A stretch of DNA of 46,147 nucleotides from Erysipelotrichales bacterium (GTDB lineage: Bacteria; Bacillota_I; Bacilli_A; Erysipelotrichales; Erysipelotrichaceae). A program made the translations under genes and the position numbers. Positions 32,235 through 39,397 of this stretch are shown here, one piece after another. The stretch lies in NCBI GenBank assembly GCA_017532345.1, contig JAFXJJ010000083.1, positions 1 through 46,147 on the forward strand, in the 5' to 3' direction. Within the stretch, counting starts at the first letter, position 1. Every line of letters begins with the position of its first letter. A model generated the notes under the pieces. It did no database searches and was not told where the DNA came from. It was given only the letters and a program-made list of their open reading frames with translations.

Positions 32235-33227
32235 TTATTTTCTAAAAATATCAAGACCTAATTTACGTTGTACTTTGTTTAACTTCTTACGTGCAATTCT
32301 TTGAGCTTTATTAGCACCATCTTCTAGTACTTTTTCGATAATACCTGATTCAATTACGCGTTTATATTCATCTTGAAGTTTTTGAATTTCAGTACATACG
32401 ACTTCAGCAACTTCTTTTTTGAATTCGCCATATCCTTTGCCTTCATATCGTGCAACGATACTATCAATACTTTCTCCACTAATAGCACTATGGATTGTTA
32501 GAAGGTTAGAGATGCCAGGTTGATTTTCAGGATCGAAACGAACATAAGCTAATGAGTCTGTTACTGCAGACATAATCTTCTTACGAGTGATTGCGATATC
32601 TTCTAATAAAATAATACAACCTTTATCATCATTTTCTGATTTAGACATTTTCTTAGTCGGATCGCTTAAAGACATGATTTTCGCACCAACTTCAGCTACT
32701 ACAGGTTCAGGAACTACAAAAGTATCTCCTAATCTATTGTTGAAGCGTTCAGCTACATCTCTAGCTAATTCAACGTGTTGTTTTTGGTCTGCACCAACAG
32801 GTACATAATCTGCATCATACATTAAGATATCTGCAGCCATTAAGCATGGATAAGTATATAACCCAGCTGTTAAATTAGTTTCACCTTTAGCTTTTTTATC
32901 TTTAAATTGAGTTTGACGATTTAATTCACCTAAATAAGTATTACAATCGATAATCCATCCAAGTTGCGCATGTTCTAAGACATCTGATTGTAAGAATAAT
33001 GTACATTTCTCAGGATCTAATCCACATGCTAGATAAATTGCGATACAATCTTTTAAATTCTTTTTTAATTGTGCAGGGTCTTGAGGAACAGTAATGCAAT
33101 GTAAGTTCGCAACAAAAACGAATAACTCATAATCATCTTGATACTTTACAAAATTTCTTAATGCTCCAATGTAGTTACCTAATGTAAGTTGACCACTTGG
33201 TTTAATTCCACTTAACATACGCTTCAT
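32235..33227 (-). CDS. trpS: Tryptophanyl-tRNA synthetase
   Basis: TrpS charges tRNA-Trp. The 330-residue class I enzyme has LSGIKPSGQLTLGNYIGAL (the first part of the HIGH region is PSGQLTLGN, as usual in TrpS), the DADYVPVGADQKQHVELARD specificity region, and KMSKS (KKMSKSEND) for ATP activation. It starts at ATG 33227 behind GGAGAG. A T-box leader lies upstream, so expression should rise when tRNA-Trp is uncharged. Confidence 0.96.
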   Translation of the reverse strand: MKRMLSGIKPSGQLTLGNYIGALRNFVKYQDDYELFVFVANLHCITVPQDPAQLKKNLKDCIAIYLACGLDPEKCTLFLQSDVLEHAQLGWIIDCNTYLGELNRQTQFKDKKAKGETNLTAGLYTYPCLMAADILMYDADYVPVGADQKQHVELARDVAERFNNRLGDTFVVPEPVVAEVGAKIMSLSDPTKKMSKSENDDKGCIILLEDIAITRKKIMSAVTDSLAYVRFDPENQPGISNLLTIHSAISGESIDSIVARYEGKGYGEFKKEVAEVVCTEIQKLQDEYKRVIESGIIEKVLEDGANKAQRIARKKLNKVQRKLGLDIFRK

Positions 33228-34128: not shown

Positions 34129-34683
34129 TTATTCAAAATTAATAGCAGTACGAACTCTTTTTGTCTTTCCAGGAGCAGGTTTAGGATTTTCTATACCATT
34201 GGCATACATAAATGCCTTAAACATTTGTAGTGAATCATGTTCTTTTTTTACTTCATATTCAATCTCGAAATCGTGAACATCAGCATAGAAATTCTCATCA
34301 AGACAGATAGTAGCTAGCTCAGTATCGAATACTGCACGATAAGTTGTTAATGAACCAAATTCTACTAAATCCTTAGGATTAACATCTTTAAGTGCCAATA
34401 AAATATCATCAGGTAATTTAATTTTATTGAAATCAAATGACTGTACTTCACATTCATATTCATTTACACCGATTTTATTAGGTGTTTTTAAAGTGAAAAT
34501 TAGTTTATTATCAACTTCTCTAATACGCAACGGCGATCTACGTTTACTTAAGTCTCTGTTCTTTGTATCAAAGTAATGATTTACTTGTTTAAAAGGTTCA
34601 TTGAAAGGATAATTAGTTTTAATTCGGTTAAATTCTTCTTCTGTTAATAATGTTTTATATTCTAATTCAATATTTTTACTCAT
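34129..34683 (-). CDS. CYTH-domain phosphohydrolase (YjbK-like)
   Basis: CYTH proteins bind triphosphate groups in a beta tunnel and act as triphosphatases or, in some cases, adenylate cyclases. ATG 34683 gives 184 residues and is supported by the promoter, whose transcript would begin near 34699, so longer readings starting at 34701 or 34734 are rejected. The ExExK signature is ELEYK (6-10), followed by the RSPLRIREVDNKLIFTLKTP strand pair, a central YRAVFD, and LDENFYADVHDFEIEYEV with metal-ligand acidic residues. It resembles the B. subtilis YjbK group, found near nadK and relA-like genes. nadK is the divergent neighbour here. Confidence 0.87.
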   Translation of the reverse strand: MSKNIELEYKTLLTEEEFNRIKTNYPFNEPFKQVNHYFDTKNRDLSKRRSPLRIREVDNKLIFTLKTPNKIGVNEYECEVQSFDFNKIKLPDDILLALKDVNPKDLVEFGSLTTYRAVFDTELATICLDENFYADVHDFEIEYEVKKEHDSLQMFKAFMYANGIENPKPAPGKTKRVRTAINFE

Positions 34684-34705
34684 ATGAACACATCCTCTCA
34701 TATGT

Positions 34706-34734
34706 ATTATAATGTAAATAGGAAAAATCTTCAA
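34706..34734 (-). promoter_or_regulatory. Promoter of the CYTH gene
   Basis: On the - strand, TTGAAG (34734 to 34729), a 17-base spacer and TATAAT (34711 to 34706). Confidence 0.8.
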
Positions 34735-34779: not shown

Positions 34780-35559
34780 ATGAAATTTTATATTGTTAGT
34801 AAATTAGATGATGTTTCAGTCAAAATTTCTAATGAATTAAGAACAAAGCTAATTAATGGTGGTGCAATTGAAGATGAAGTTTCTCCTAATATTGTTGTAT
34901 CAATAGGGGGAGATGGTACAATGTTGCGTGCTGTTCACGAATATATTGAGAAGGTTGATGATGTTTGTTTTGTGGGACTTCATACTGGTACACTTGGGTT
35001 TTATACTAATTATACTTTAGATGATGTAGATTTATTATGTGATAACTTATTGAATAAGAATCCGAGTATTGATGAATATTCATTAATAGAAGTAAGATAT
35101 AATAATAAGACACAGTTAGCTTTAAATGAGATAAGAGTAGAGAATAATTATCATACCCAAGAGATTGATATTTATTTAAATGAACAATATCTTCAAACAT
35201 TTAAAGGTAATGGTATTTGTCTAGCAACTGCAATTGGCTCTACTGGATATAATCGTTCTTTAAAAGGTCCGATTATTCATCCATCATTAGATGTTATGAT
35301 TATGAGTGAAATAGCTGCGATACATCATCGCTATTTCTCGACATTATCTTCGCCATTAGTTATGGGGAGAAATACGATATTTAAAATGGTTATTAAACCT
35401 AGTAAGCATATTTTATTAGGAATCGACCATGAAATTTATGATGATTTGGAATTAACAGAAATTGAGTGTAAATTATCAGACAAGAAGTTTAAAATGTTGA
35501 ACTATAATGAATTTTCGTATGTGCAAAGATTACGTAAAGCATTCCTAGAAAAAGATTAA
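34780..35559 (+). CDS. nadK: NAD kinase
   Basis: NadK phosphorylates NAD to NADP. The 259-residue product has the GGDGT motif with Asp45 (VSIGGDGTMLRAVHEY), the HTGTLGFYTNY loop, the NE pair in LALNEIRVE, and ICLATAIGSTGYN with the conserved AxGSTxYxxS-like segment. It has the length of the short Gram-positive form. It is divergently arranged with the CYTH gene. Confidence 0.95.
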   Translation: MKFYIVSKLDDVSVKISNELRTKLINGGAIEDEVSPNIVVSIGGDGTMLRAVHEYIEKVDDVCFVGLHTGTLGFYTNYTLDDVDLLCDNLLNKNPSIDEYSLIEVRYNNKTQLALNEIRVENNYHTQEIDIYLNEQYLQTFKGNGICLATAIGSTGYNRSLKGPIIHPSLDVMIMSEIAAIHHRYFSTLSSPLVMGRNTIFKMVIKPSKHILLGIDHEIYDDLELTEIECKLSDKKFKMLNYNEFSYVQRLRKAFLEKD

Positions 35560-35590
35560 AGGACAGAGATTAACTCTGTCCTAGTTTTTT
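35560..35590. terminator. Bidirectional terminator between nadK and the RodA/FtsW gene
   Basis: AGGACAGAG pairs with CTCTGTCCT around ATTAA, followed on the + strand by AGTTTTTT. The converging genes end at its two sides. Confidence 0.85.
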
Positions 35591-36798
35591 ACGCGTGTAG
35601 CATTAACTTCTGTAACTTCAGCTTTTTGTTCGAATTCATTATACATTTGGAAGACAAATGCCAAGATAACCATATAGGAAAGCATAGATGAACCACCAGC
35701 CGAAATTAGTGGTAATGTGATACCAGTGATAGGGAAAAGACCAGTAATCATTCCCATATTCTCAATTTGTTGGAAAGCAAGAATTCCAACAAGTCCTGCG
35801 ATGATATATTTATTACGACTTTTCTTTGTACGATAACCAATATAAAGTAAGCGTAAATCCAAACAGAAGCATAGGAAGACTACAAATATCGATCCTATAA
35901 CACCGAATGATGAGCCAATTACCGCAAAGATAAAGTCAGTTTGAGCTTCAGCTATGGACAATGGTACATTTTGAAGTCCATGACCAAATTTTCCTGCTGA
36001 ACCAATGGCAAGTAAAGATGTATATAGTTGATTACCATAGGAAAGAATGTATTCTTCAGGCTTAAGCCATCCCATTATTCTTAGTATCTTATAGTCACCA
36101 CCAATAATATAATCAATTACAAATTCAGGGTTACTTAAGTACAATATTCCAACTAATAGTAAAATAATTCCGACAAAACAAGCGCCAATAATAAACCATT
36201 CTGTCTTGATTCCACTAGCAAGTAACATGAATGCAATCGAGAATAGAATGATTAATGTAACTCCACTATCTGGTTCATAATAAATAAGTAATGCAGGTGG
36301 AATAACATATTTCATAATATCAATAATTAATTTAAAATCTGTTGCATAGGTATTCTTTGGGAATAACTTATGATGCTTTTCAATGACGTTAGCAACAATA
36401 ATAATTAATACTACTTTCATAAATTCACTTGGCTGTATTGTACCGATACCAGGTATCGTATACCAAGCATATGAACCGTTCGTCATTCTAATGATTTTAC
36501 TTAATATTGGTAATTCAAAGTATCGTTGAACTACTAATAATAAGAGTGCAAATAGTAATATATAATAAGAAATATAAATCAATAATTCAAAACGCTCCGT
36601 TCCTATATAGAACATGAATAACATTATGCCAAATCCTAATAAAATCCAAACGATTTGTTTACCTAAAATAAAAGCAGGAGTATAGTTTGAATTAATTAAA
36701 GGAATAGCACTATATATAGCAACTAACGATGTCAAAGACATTGCGATTAGAATGAGCATTAAGATAGGATCTATTTTCTTACGATTAGCTTCATTCAT
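35581..36798 (-). CDS. rodA: SEDS peptidoglycan polymerase, RodA/FtsW family
   Basis: SEDS proteins polymerise glycan strands from lipid II with a partner class B PBP. ATG 36798 follows GGAGGA and is preferred to the in-frame ATG at 36813; the product has 405 residues. About ten membrane helices are evident. Conserved features include PGIGTIQPSEFMKVVLI (the segment with the essential Glu), the YEPDSGVTLII loop with the catalytic-type Asp, and the C-terminal GITLPLISAGGSSML signature. RodA (elongation) is preferred over FtsW by length and lack of a long tail, but I cannot separate them firmly. Confidence 0.87.
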   Translation of the reverse strand: MNEANRKKIDPILMLILIAMSLTSLVAIYSAIPLINSNYTPAFILGKQIVWILLGFGIMLFMFYIGTERFELLIYISYYILLFALLLLVVQRYFELPILSKIIRMTNGSYAWYTIPGIGTIQPSEFMKVVLIIIVANVIEKHHKLFPKNTYATDFKLIIDIMKYVIPPALLIYYEPDSGVTLIILFSIAFMLLASGIKTEWFIIGACFVGIILLLVGILYLSNPEFVIDYIIGGDYKILRIMGWLKPEEYILSYGNQLYTSLLAIGSAGKFGHGLQNVPLSIAEAQTDFIFAVIGSSFGVIGSIFVVFLCFCLDLRLLYIGYRTKKSRNKYIIAGLVGILAFQQIENMGMITGLFPITGITLPLISAGGSSMLSYMVILAFVFQMYNEFEQKAEVTEVNATRVKN

Positions 36799-36822
36799 AA
36801 TAAAATCCTCCATTACTTAATA

Positions 36823-36919: not shown

Positions 36920-38473
36920 ATGCAAAAAAGATTTGATTATTTTTTGGAAATGGGTCAATTTCCTTTAATTATATTATTTTGTGCATCTATAATGTTGGGG
37001 ACTGGGAATTTATTAGTTAATAGTGAATTGGCTGTGTTTTGGGATGTCTCAAGTAACTTAATTATTCAAGCTAGTATTTTACTTAAAGCTCTAGGTTCAT
37101 TTATTATTTCATTGTTTCCATTATTGTTGCTTGTATTTATTTTATCTAAAAAGTATGATGATTCTCATGCTGGTATGATAGGGTTAGCTTCGTATGCTAC
37201 ACTATTAGTTACAACAATGATATTTGCATCTGAAAAGCTTAATCCAGTTGCCTATAATTCGGTTTTAGGATTAAGCATTAACAATGTTGATTATCCTTCA
37301 TTAGCAATTGCTATTCGTAATCCTCTGCATTTGGGATTATTAGCTACATTTGTTTGTTATAGAATTGTAAAGCATTGCTATTTGAAAACTAGAAATCGAA
37401 GAAGCTATGGTGCTTTCTCATTTATTGATAAAAACGTATTATCTTTACTTTATGCAATTTTCTACAGTTTAATTTTAGGGCTTATAATTTCATTTATTTG
37501 GCCATATATTATAAATTTCTTATTTATTATATTTGATTTTATTGCTGATGATATTACTAATCCATTTAACTTATTCTTGTATGGTGCACTCGAAAAATTA
37601 TTTGGAGTTGCTAATATGATTTCAATTCCACGAAATGTATTCTGGTTCTCAGAATATGGTGGAAGCTGGTTAGATAGTTTAGGAAGAAAATATGTGGGGG
37701 ATGTTGCTATTTGGACTGCACAAAATGCTTCTTCAATGGTTACTGGTGGTATCGGTAGATTTATTACACCACTATATGTAATCCAAATCTTTGCAATTCC
37801 TGGCTATATTCTTGCTTTATTTACTATTTATACAAATCGATTTGAAAAACGCAAATATGTATTATTTGCAATAATTGCGATGATTGTTTCGATGTTTATG
37901 GGGAATTCATTCCCATTTGACTTATTTATGTTTGCGACAACTCCTTTATTGTTCTTCTTACATGTATTTGCAAGCGGAGTAATATATGCATTCTTACAAT
38001 GGTTAAAGCTTTACATTGGTTATTCATTCAGTGGTAACATTTCTCTAGCTGCTGCAGGAAGCTTAGCTGATTTATTTGTATATTTCCGTAGTACTTCAAT
38101 GATGGCATCAATTCAAAACTTATTCATTGTTGGACTAGTGGTATTTGTAATTTACTTCTTAATGACACGTATTTACTATAAGTATTTAGCGTTAGATATG
38201 TTCCAATCTGGCTTACAAAGAGGTATCGTAGTTACTTTAATAGATGGCTTAGGTGGAGTTGATAATATTAAGATTATCGATAGTAATCCATTTAAATTAT
38301 TAATTCAAGTTCACGATGAATCTAAAGTTAATATCGCAATTTTACGTGCATTATGTAATTCTAAAGTGTTTGAAAGTAAAACAGGTTATGTCCTTTATTT
38401 CTATAAAGCTTCTTATACTATTTATGCTGATGTTATGGCTGAAATAAAGGCTTATAAACAACAAGTTAGTTAG
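36920..38473 (+). CDS. PTS glucose-family EIIC-EIIB-like membrane protein lacking the EIIB cysteine
   Basis: PTS EIICB proteins import a sugar and phosphorylate it through a cysteine in EIIB. This 517-residue protein has the EIIC layout: about ten hydrophobic segments, NVFWFSEYGG near 239, and GNSFPFDLFMFATTPLLFFLH near 328 where EIIC proteins have a TEPIEF motif. The C-terminal 440-512 is EIIB-like (VVTLIDGLGGVDNIKII, then DESKVNIAILRAL). The canonical DACxTRLR is replaced by DSNPFKLL, so the phospho-Cys is Asn456, the Thr is Phe and the Arg is Lys. It cannot phosphorylate sugar by the known route and may be a sensor, a facilitator, or part of a complex. A small membrane protein gene follows. 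Confidence 0.75.
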   Translation: MQKRFDYFLEMGQFPLIILFCASIMLGTGNLLVNSELAVFWDVSSNLIIQASILLKALGSFIISLFPLLLLVFILSKKYDDSHAGMIGLASYATLLVTTMIFASEKLNPVAYNSVLGLSINNVDYPSLAIAIRNPLHLGLLATFVCYRIVKHCYLKTRNRRSYGAFSFIDKNVLSLLYAIFYSLILGLIISFIWPYIINFLFIIFDFIADDITNPFNLFLYGALEKLFGVANMISIPRNVFWFSEYGGSWLDSLGRKYVGDVAIWTAQNASSMVTGGIGRFITPLYVIQIFAIPGYILALFTIYTNRFEKRKYVLFAIIAMIVSMFMGNSFPFDLFMFATTPLLFFLHVFASGVIYAFLQWLKLYIGYSFSGNISLAAAGSLADLFVYFRSTSMMASIQNLFIVGLVVFVIYFLMTRIYYKYLALDMFQSGLQRGIVVTLIDGLGGVDNIKIIDSNPFKLLIQVHDESKVNIAILRALCNSKVFESKTGYVLYFYKASYTIYADVMAEIKAYKQQVS

Positions 38474-38483
38474 GAGTGAATTT

Positions 38484-38978
38484 ATGTATATTTATGCTGC
38501 GATAATGTGGGTGATGACTGTTTTCTTAGCATATTCTGATTATGTAATTATTAAGAAAACACTTGATATGAAGAAAACAACTGATTTGTCTAATTATGAA
38601 GTTTATGATTATTCTAAATCTCAAAAAATAATGTTTGGAGTTATATTAGTATTTGCTTTGGTAACAGTTATTGTTACTAAAGTAAGTATTGAATATATTC
38701 TAATTAATGTTGCGATTCTTGTAATTGCGATTGTAGAATTAATTGCTGGTATTATGGTAATGAAGCTTTACTACAATACGAAATCAATTATTTATGAGGG
38801 TGAACTTATTAAATTAAAGAGTATTAAGTCAATTGAAAAAGTAAAAAGATTTGGTAAATCATGTGAGATAGTTACATATGATGGTAATCATTATATGATT
38901 AATCAAAGACTTGCTGATTTAATTCAATCTTTAATTGATCAAGCAAAAGAAGAAAAAATTAATAGAAAGAAGAAATAA
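38484..38978 (+). CDS. Unknown small membrane protein
   Basis: This 164-residue protein is not recognised. It has three hydrophobic segments (about 3-22, 50-68, 72-95), then a cytoplasmic C-terminal part with NTKSIIYEGELIKLKSIKSI and a PH-like strand pattern (GKSCEIVTYDGNHYMI), ending in a basic tail. It starts ten bases after the EIIC-EIIB-like gene with AGGAG before the ATG, so the two form an operon. The pairing suggests a partner for the altered PTS protein, which is inference only. Confidence 0.7.
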   Translation: MYIYAAIMWVMTVFLAYSDYVIIKKTLDMKKTTDLSNYEVYDYSKSQKIMFGVILVFALVTVIVTKVSIEYILINVAILVIAIVELIAGIMVMKLYYNTKSIIYEGELIKLKSIKSIEKVKRFGKSCEIVTYDGNHYMINQRLADLIQSLIDQAKEEKINRKKK

Positions 38979-39206: not shown

Positions 39207-39238
39207 TCTGGTTATACTAGTAATAGGAGGTGAATGCT

Positions 39239-39397
39239 ATGGAGAAAAAGCATCCTATTTTCTGTACTGTGAAATCATGTTTATATAACGTTGAATGTGG
39301 TTGTTCAGCAAACGAAGTAACAGTAGGGCTAGATAATGCGGTACATGCTGACCGTGATAGTGAAACTAGTTGTAAGACATTTAAAGTGAAGAAGTAA
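39239..39397 (+). CDS. DUF1540 cysteine-rich small protein
   Basis: The 52-residue frame starts MEKKHPIFCTVKSCLYNVEC and continues GCSANEVTVG, ending ETSCKTFKVKK. The cysteine spacing (C9, C14, C20, C22 and C45) matches DUF1540, a small family with a possible metal-binding or disulphide role, common in clostridia and often linked to sporulation expression. AGGAGGTG precedes the ATG. A terminator follows. Confidence 0.75.
   Translation: MEKKHPIFCTVKSCLYNVECGCSANEVTVGLDNAVHADRDSETSCKTFKVKK

Follow-up and report, generated by a model that had tools for sequence, protein, structure and literature searches.

The stretch of DNA analysed here (the window, 46,147 nucleotides) contains a plus-strand gene for a 517-residue protein in which an EIIC membrane part is followed by an EIIB domain without the phospho-cysteine; we refer to this protein and its full-length orthologues as the long form. 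All five neighbours that were compared between genomes (trpS, spx, CYTH, nadK and the rodA-type gene), whose names were assigned from sequence by eye, precede the window gene. The features of the locus are as follows.

32235..33227, minus strand: tryptophanyl-tRNA synthetase gene (trpS), a conserved neighbour, with the same order in the presumed M. genitalium genome
33593..34048, plus strand: Spx/ArsC-type gene (spx), a conserved neighbour
34129..34734, minus strand: CYTH-domain protein gene, a conserved neighbour
34780..35559, plus strand: NAD kinase gene (nadK), a neighbour conserved from Erysipelotrichales to mollicutes
35581..36813, minus strand: rodA/ftsW-type gene, divergent, a neighbour conserved in part of the clade and in the sister family
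36920..38473, plus strand: the long form, a Cys-less EIIC-EIIB protein of 517 aa; intact frame with 102 orthologues
36920..38191, plus strand: EIIC membrane part, residues 1-424, the model matching residues 8-450 of MalT 5iws
37904..37927, plus strand: altered TEPIEF site, NSFPFDLF, residues 329-336
38210..38455, plus strand: predicted EIIB fold, about residues 431-512, from comparison of the model with the EIIB of 3bp3 and 3bp8
38279..38302, plus strand: former phospho-cysteine loop, DSNPFKLL, residues 454-461
38484..38978, plus strand: 164-aa membrane protein with no family match above cut-off, outside the conserved system

The window protein matched the glucose and GlcNAc EIICB models of NCBIfam over its full length (TIGR02002, 2.6e-25; TIGR01998, 2.6e-20), with a TIGR02002 score of 89.1 bits that lies far under the equivalog cut-off of 591.8. 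Its sole Pfam match was a sub-threshold one to EIIB (PF00367, 15.7 bits, cut-off 27), and the EIIC model PF02378 scored above its cut-off in the relative L052 and below it in the window protein. An AlphaFold2 model of the window protein built with 33 orthologues (mean pLDDT 87, pTM 0.86) matched the EIIC of MalT (5iws; Z 25.6, 3.5 A over 395 residues) and the EIIB of E. coli (3bp3; Z 13.5, 1.8 A over 81 residues). These model matches indicate that the protein has a genuine EIIC-EIIB fold, of the glucose type by profile and by predicted structure. An earlier, sequence-only reading of this DNA had described an intact, EIICB-like frame, and this agrees with the full-length glucose EIICB match and with the finding that both frames (517 and 164 aa) are intact. 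The strong promoter that it had also assigned to the gene did not hold up, as its match (9/12) was no better than in shuffled DNA, with 18 sites found against 18.6 expected. Nor did its pairing of the window gene with the 164-residue membrane protein, whose presence downstream across the clade it had proposed as a check: no homologue of that protein lay beside clade members at any other locus examined, and we rejected a functional pair because this neighbour is not conserved. Further downstream, a 55-residue frame that bears a Cys (39230-39397 of the window) is also found in the sister genome G001, where it precedes the same polymerase-type gene.

The phospho-cysteine is the defining feature of EIIB domains. 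In an alignment with E. coli PtsG, the position of C421 was occupied by N456 of the window protein, T297/E298 by S330/F331 (NSFPFDLF opposite ITEPIEF), and H211/H212 by I234/S235. We compared 102 distinct orthologues, all from Erysipelotrichaceae as far as they are named and all found by searches within this phylum, and none of them has a Cys at the C421 position (S in 67, T in 14, G in 14, N in 4 and A in 3), compared with 14 of 14 canonical EIICB paralogues; the loss of the cysteine is therefore not due to chance. The second Arg of CxTRLR is also gone in 102/102 orthologues, and the first R/K is retained in 75. At the EIIC site, the TEP Glu (PtsG E298) is gone in every orthologue, with L in 89, and the second Glu of TEPxE is kept in 94, the window protein having D334 there. 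Replacement of DACxTRLR by DSNPFKLL and alteration of TEPIEF to SFPFDLF had both been read from the window, and they hold for the whole clade as regards the cysteine, the second Arg and the TEP Glu, but not as regards the first R/K and the second Glu, which most members retain; homologues of the clade that keep the cysteine were not found. Other parts of the EIIB motif (GG-DNI, LGASGIVE, IFG) are retained in the family.

At the sugar contacts of PtsG (taken from PMC11393339), H211 is kept in only 1 and H212 in 3 of the 102 orthologues. The R203 position is kept in 93, the window protein having K226 where these have R; D or E stands at the E202 position in 97, the N215 position is R in 95 and the K257 position is N in 99. 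Because the R203 and E202 positions are kept and the changes of N215 to R and K257 to N are nearly clade-wide, the pocket has not been randomly eroded but holds a conserved polar set of its own (the D/E225, R226, R238 and N289 positions). By its D334 and K226, the window protein is slightly more derived than most of its orthologues. The clade is thus like the E. coli PtsG (IICB-Glc)/TIGR02002 family in domain order, EIIC and EIIB folds, R203 (as R/K) and the acidic E202 position, but lacks the phospho-cysteine, the TEP Glu, the HH pair, N215 and K257.

Of the 58 family genomes in the initial search, 33 carried a member of the long-form clade, counting the genome of the window, and the match scores of this search showed a clear gap (E < 1e-60 vs E > 1e-17). 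Named records with the long form include Holdemania, Dielma, Anaerorhabdus, Solobacterium-type and other Erysipelotrichaceae. In a 392-genome sample of the phylum, all strong full-length matches were in Erysipelotrichaceae save canonical ones in Turicibacter; the latter (E ~1e-62) were considered as distant members and rejected, since they keep the Cys and adjoin HPr/EI genes. The window's own genome encodes Enzyme I, as well as four glucose-family EIIBs of the canonical kind with the Cys, and these four normal EIIBs serve as internal controls. As nearly all genomes of the window's family have Enzyme I, its absence is uninformative there as a test of dependence on the PTS; this test gave an answer only for genomes with the short form (see below).

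The dN/dS ratio was 0.017-0.158 over the 37 orthologue pairs with dS < 1.5 (all < 0.16), and its median over 53 orthologue pairs was 0.077 for the whole protein, 0.079 for EIIC and 0.05 for EIIB; the dead EIIB is the more tightly constrained part of the long form. None of the 33 family matches contains an internal stop, and 18 columns are invariant among these 33 divergent sequences. This strong purifying selection (median ~0.08) rules out a pseudogene for the clade, as the sequence-only reading had held in calling the gene intact and not decayed. It also makes it very improbable that an EIICB which lost its function in an ancestor is now in slow decay, lingering in a conserved locus through inertia, an explanation against which the absence of internal stops and the invariant columns count as well. 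What such decay could account for is the clean loss between rodA and mutS in several family members, and the broken reading frame of one Erysipelothrix-type genome. With regard to the former, rodA directly adjoins mutS in family genomes without the long form at 6 of the 17 loci examined (those where the stretch reaches both genes); several Erysipelotrichaceae have lost the long form cleanly, and the gene is therefore dispensable there. With regard to the latter, the long form is broken up there into two frames, of 267 and 269 aa, that overlap (L171:4208-5801, genome G429) and is intact in the near-identical relative L168, so that the split represents either a recent inactivation or a sequencing error.

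The main rival explanation for the long form is a PTS-independent transporter with a new substrate, in which EIIC would move a non-sugar or unphosphorylated compound through the remodelled pocket by elevator movement, and the dead EIIB would be a regulatory or structural remnant. The strong purifying selection on EIIC, the new conserved polar set in the pocket and the intact MalT-like fold are all consistent with such a protein. It would not be expected, however, that EIIB should be more constrained than EIIC, or that in other families the same gene block should hold a protein without EIIC, having only a transmembrane helix and EIIB (see below); moreover, no member retains the PtsG sugar-binding Glu, and hardly any the His pair. 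We regard this transporter as a minority possibility, though one with a real chance. The sequence-only reading had proposed that a catalytically dead EIICB might be a sensor, a facilitator or a non-sugar transporter, and the dead EIICB in a conserved clade was confirmed; a sugar facilitator is disfavoured because of these same losses at the sugar site and because the short form lacks EIIC.

The position of the gene connects the long form to a second set of proteins. In other Erysipelotrichaceae the long form usually lies after nadK, often also after rodA, and many have mutS-mutL downstream of it; 66 of 73 long-form loci lie no more than 8 genes from trpS, spx, CYTH, nadK or rodA. Cys-less short forms lie no more than 6 genes from the same set in 41 of 49 cases, compared with 0 of 12 canonical loci. 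The window genus retains the full trpS-spx-CYTH-nadK order of the mollicutes and the sister family (window:32235-35559); spx and trpS are still nearby in only 2 of the 73 long-form loci of the family. These neighbours are housekeeping genes, and conservation of their order need not imply a functional link to the EIIB gene. We considered rodA as a universal partner and rejected it as impossible in the wall-less mycoplasmas, which retain the short form.

The short form, found from the sister family of the order to the mollicutes, is mostly 105-130 aa long and consists of one transmembrane helix and a Cys-less EIIB domain. In the sister family it occupies the same slot, divergent from rodA, as a protein of 108-117 aa with one transmembrane helix and EIIB, in which SSPSKL or a similar sequence stands in place of CxTRLR; one of these proteins matched positions 379-500 of the 502-position glcB model, that is, the last helix and EIIB. 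Most of the phylum's genomes contained EIIB-like genes detected with a joint profile of both forms, a count that includes canonical EIIBs. We read 52 stand-alone EIIB loci, sampled by profile score so that the counts are not a share of all genomes, and 49 of them were Cys-less. The three others (L200, L218 and L223) are canonical stand-alone EIIBs, which resemble the short form as short EIIB-fold proteins but keep C-x-[TS]-R-[LI]-R and lie outside the trpS-nadK block. At 18 loci the short form directly follows nadK on the same strand, with a gap of no more than 20 bp in 12 of these and overlap in some. The presumed M. genitalium genome has the order trpS-spx-nadK-EIIB-RNase Y, with nadK overlapping the EIIB gene by one base; we take this EIIB gene, whose product has the loop TTPTQL, to be MG_129.

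Some Cys-less EIIBs depart from this arrangement. A variant of 219-226 aa (L208:3995-4654 and L209:3992-4672) lies outside the trpS-nadK block and has more than 100 extra N-terminal residues, largely hydrophobic, before the EIIB domain. In one mycoplasma family (L211, L214, L216, L217, L220, L227 and L232), the Cys-less EIIB gene is divergent from trpS and directly precedes a very large gene, of at least 1,029-1,334 aa.

The Enzyme I N-domain was absent from 23 of 39 short-form genomes, and 17 of these 23 also lack HPr. Among the 17 are four single-contig genomes with an estimated completeness of 98-99%; every one of the 17 yielded just one EIIB-like match, which lies in the gene block in 13. 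A fold prediction for the short form from one of the 17 gave EIIB (matches to 3bp3, 1.1e-7, and to the Mlc/EIIB complex 3bp8, 2.0e-7). Because the short form is Cys-less and many of its hosts lack both EI and HPr, its job cannot be phosphotransfer. This persistence in 23 genomes without Enzyme I also bears on a PTS-linked sensor, in which the dead EIIB would compete for EIIA/HPr or report their phosphorylation, and so regulate sugar uptake or transcription. Such sensing could apply only to the long form, and not as a shared function, since the short form survives without Enzyme I or HPr. Although the family retains the EIIB fold and a good deal of its motif, Enzyme I and four canonical EIIBs occur in the window genome, and an AlphaFold3 screen also put PtsH on FtsY together with MG_129 (PMC13047044), we judge the sensor to be improbable.

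The relationship between the two forms was less sharply defined by phylogeny than by position. In a tree of the EIIB domain, short at 82 columns, the long-form clade had support of 100/99, and monophyly of long and short forms together was neither supported nor rejected (p-AU 0.119); profile scores placed the long-form EIIB slightly nearer to canonical EIIBs (40 bits vs 36-38) without separating the groups. These results would suit a coincidence of address, in which the long form would be a distinct EIICB, inactivated in its own right, that took the place of the short form and shares no function with it. The same locus, the same loss of the Cys, the same divergent rodA neighbour in the sister family, and the match of the sister-family short form to the last helix and EIIB of glcB all argue against such a coincidence, which we think unlikely. 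Given their common position, the loss of the Cys in both and a last helix like that of glcB, we infer that the long and short forms are orthologous, and further that they have one shared job. The anchor of the window protein is a full EIIC rather than the single helix of the typical 105-130 aa form, and the window gene is thus a candidate long variant, not a typical member, of the Cys-less membrane-anchored EIIB family to which MG_129 belongs.

Every form holds at the membrane an EIIB surface whose usual residue cannot be phosphorylated. On balance, we consider that the product of the window gene is probably the long form of a docking module derived from the PTS, a non-phosphorylatable EIIB tethered to the membrane that works independently of the PTS. 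The decisive evidence for such a role lies outside the window, and it was for this reason invisible to the sequence-only reading. In E. coli, unphosphorylated EIIB-Glc holds the repressor Mlc at the membrane (complex 3bp8). By analogy, the EIIB domain would serve as a docking surface that is locked in the 'unphosphorylated' state and keeps a cytoplasmic partner at the membrane, and in Erysipelotrichaceae EIIC would remain as the anchor, perhaps with its remodelled pocket (D/E225, R226, R238, N289) binding a ligand. The likeness is that an unphosphorylated, membrane-tethered EIIB docks a soluble protein; the difference is that docking in E. coli is reversible via the Cys, whereas the window family has none.

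A candidate for the partner is FtsY, the SRP receptor, although this is a lead from a mycoplasma prediction and not proof. The M. genitalium protein MG_129 and its M. pneumoniae counterpart MPN_268 have been called an 'orphan PTS EIIB', and a pooled 2026 AlphaFold3 screen of M. genitalium gave MG_129-FtsY a size-corrected ipTM of 0.496, with one in-cell crosslink in mycoplasma; the missing cysteine is not mentioned by the authors (PMC13047044). In the open literature we found nothing on MG_129/MPN_268 beyond this report. These proteins resemble the window protein in their Cys-less EIIB, their location near nadK-spx-trpS and their hydrophobic N-terminal anchor; they differ in having one helix in place of a full EIIC, and the FtsY interaction is predicted for the mycoplasma protein only. 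It is conceivable, though as a complete scenario we hold it to be doubtful, that the Erysipelotrichia-mollicute lineage co-opted a glucose-type EIICB at an early stage, turning it into a docking factor at the membrane that needs no PTS and serves some basic cell process, possibly the co-translational targeting of proteins via FtsY. Most families, minimal-genome mycoplasmas included, would then have trimmed it to one helix and EIIB, with Erysipelotrichaceae keeping the ancestral long form.

A conserved Cys-less lineage, and a short form that survives without the PTS, in closed mycoplasma genomes among others, suggest that the EIIB fold has been reused for a different task at the membrane. The notion of a 'moonlighting PTS enzyme' is replaced by that of a family incapable of phosphotransfer, in which the long form may represent an evolutionary intermediate, and MG_129/MPN_268, an unexplained orphan of near-minimal cells, gains an evolutionary context.
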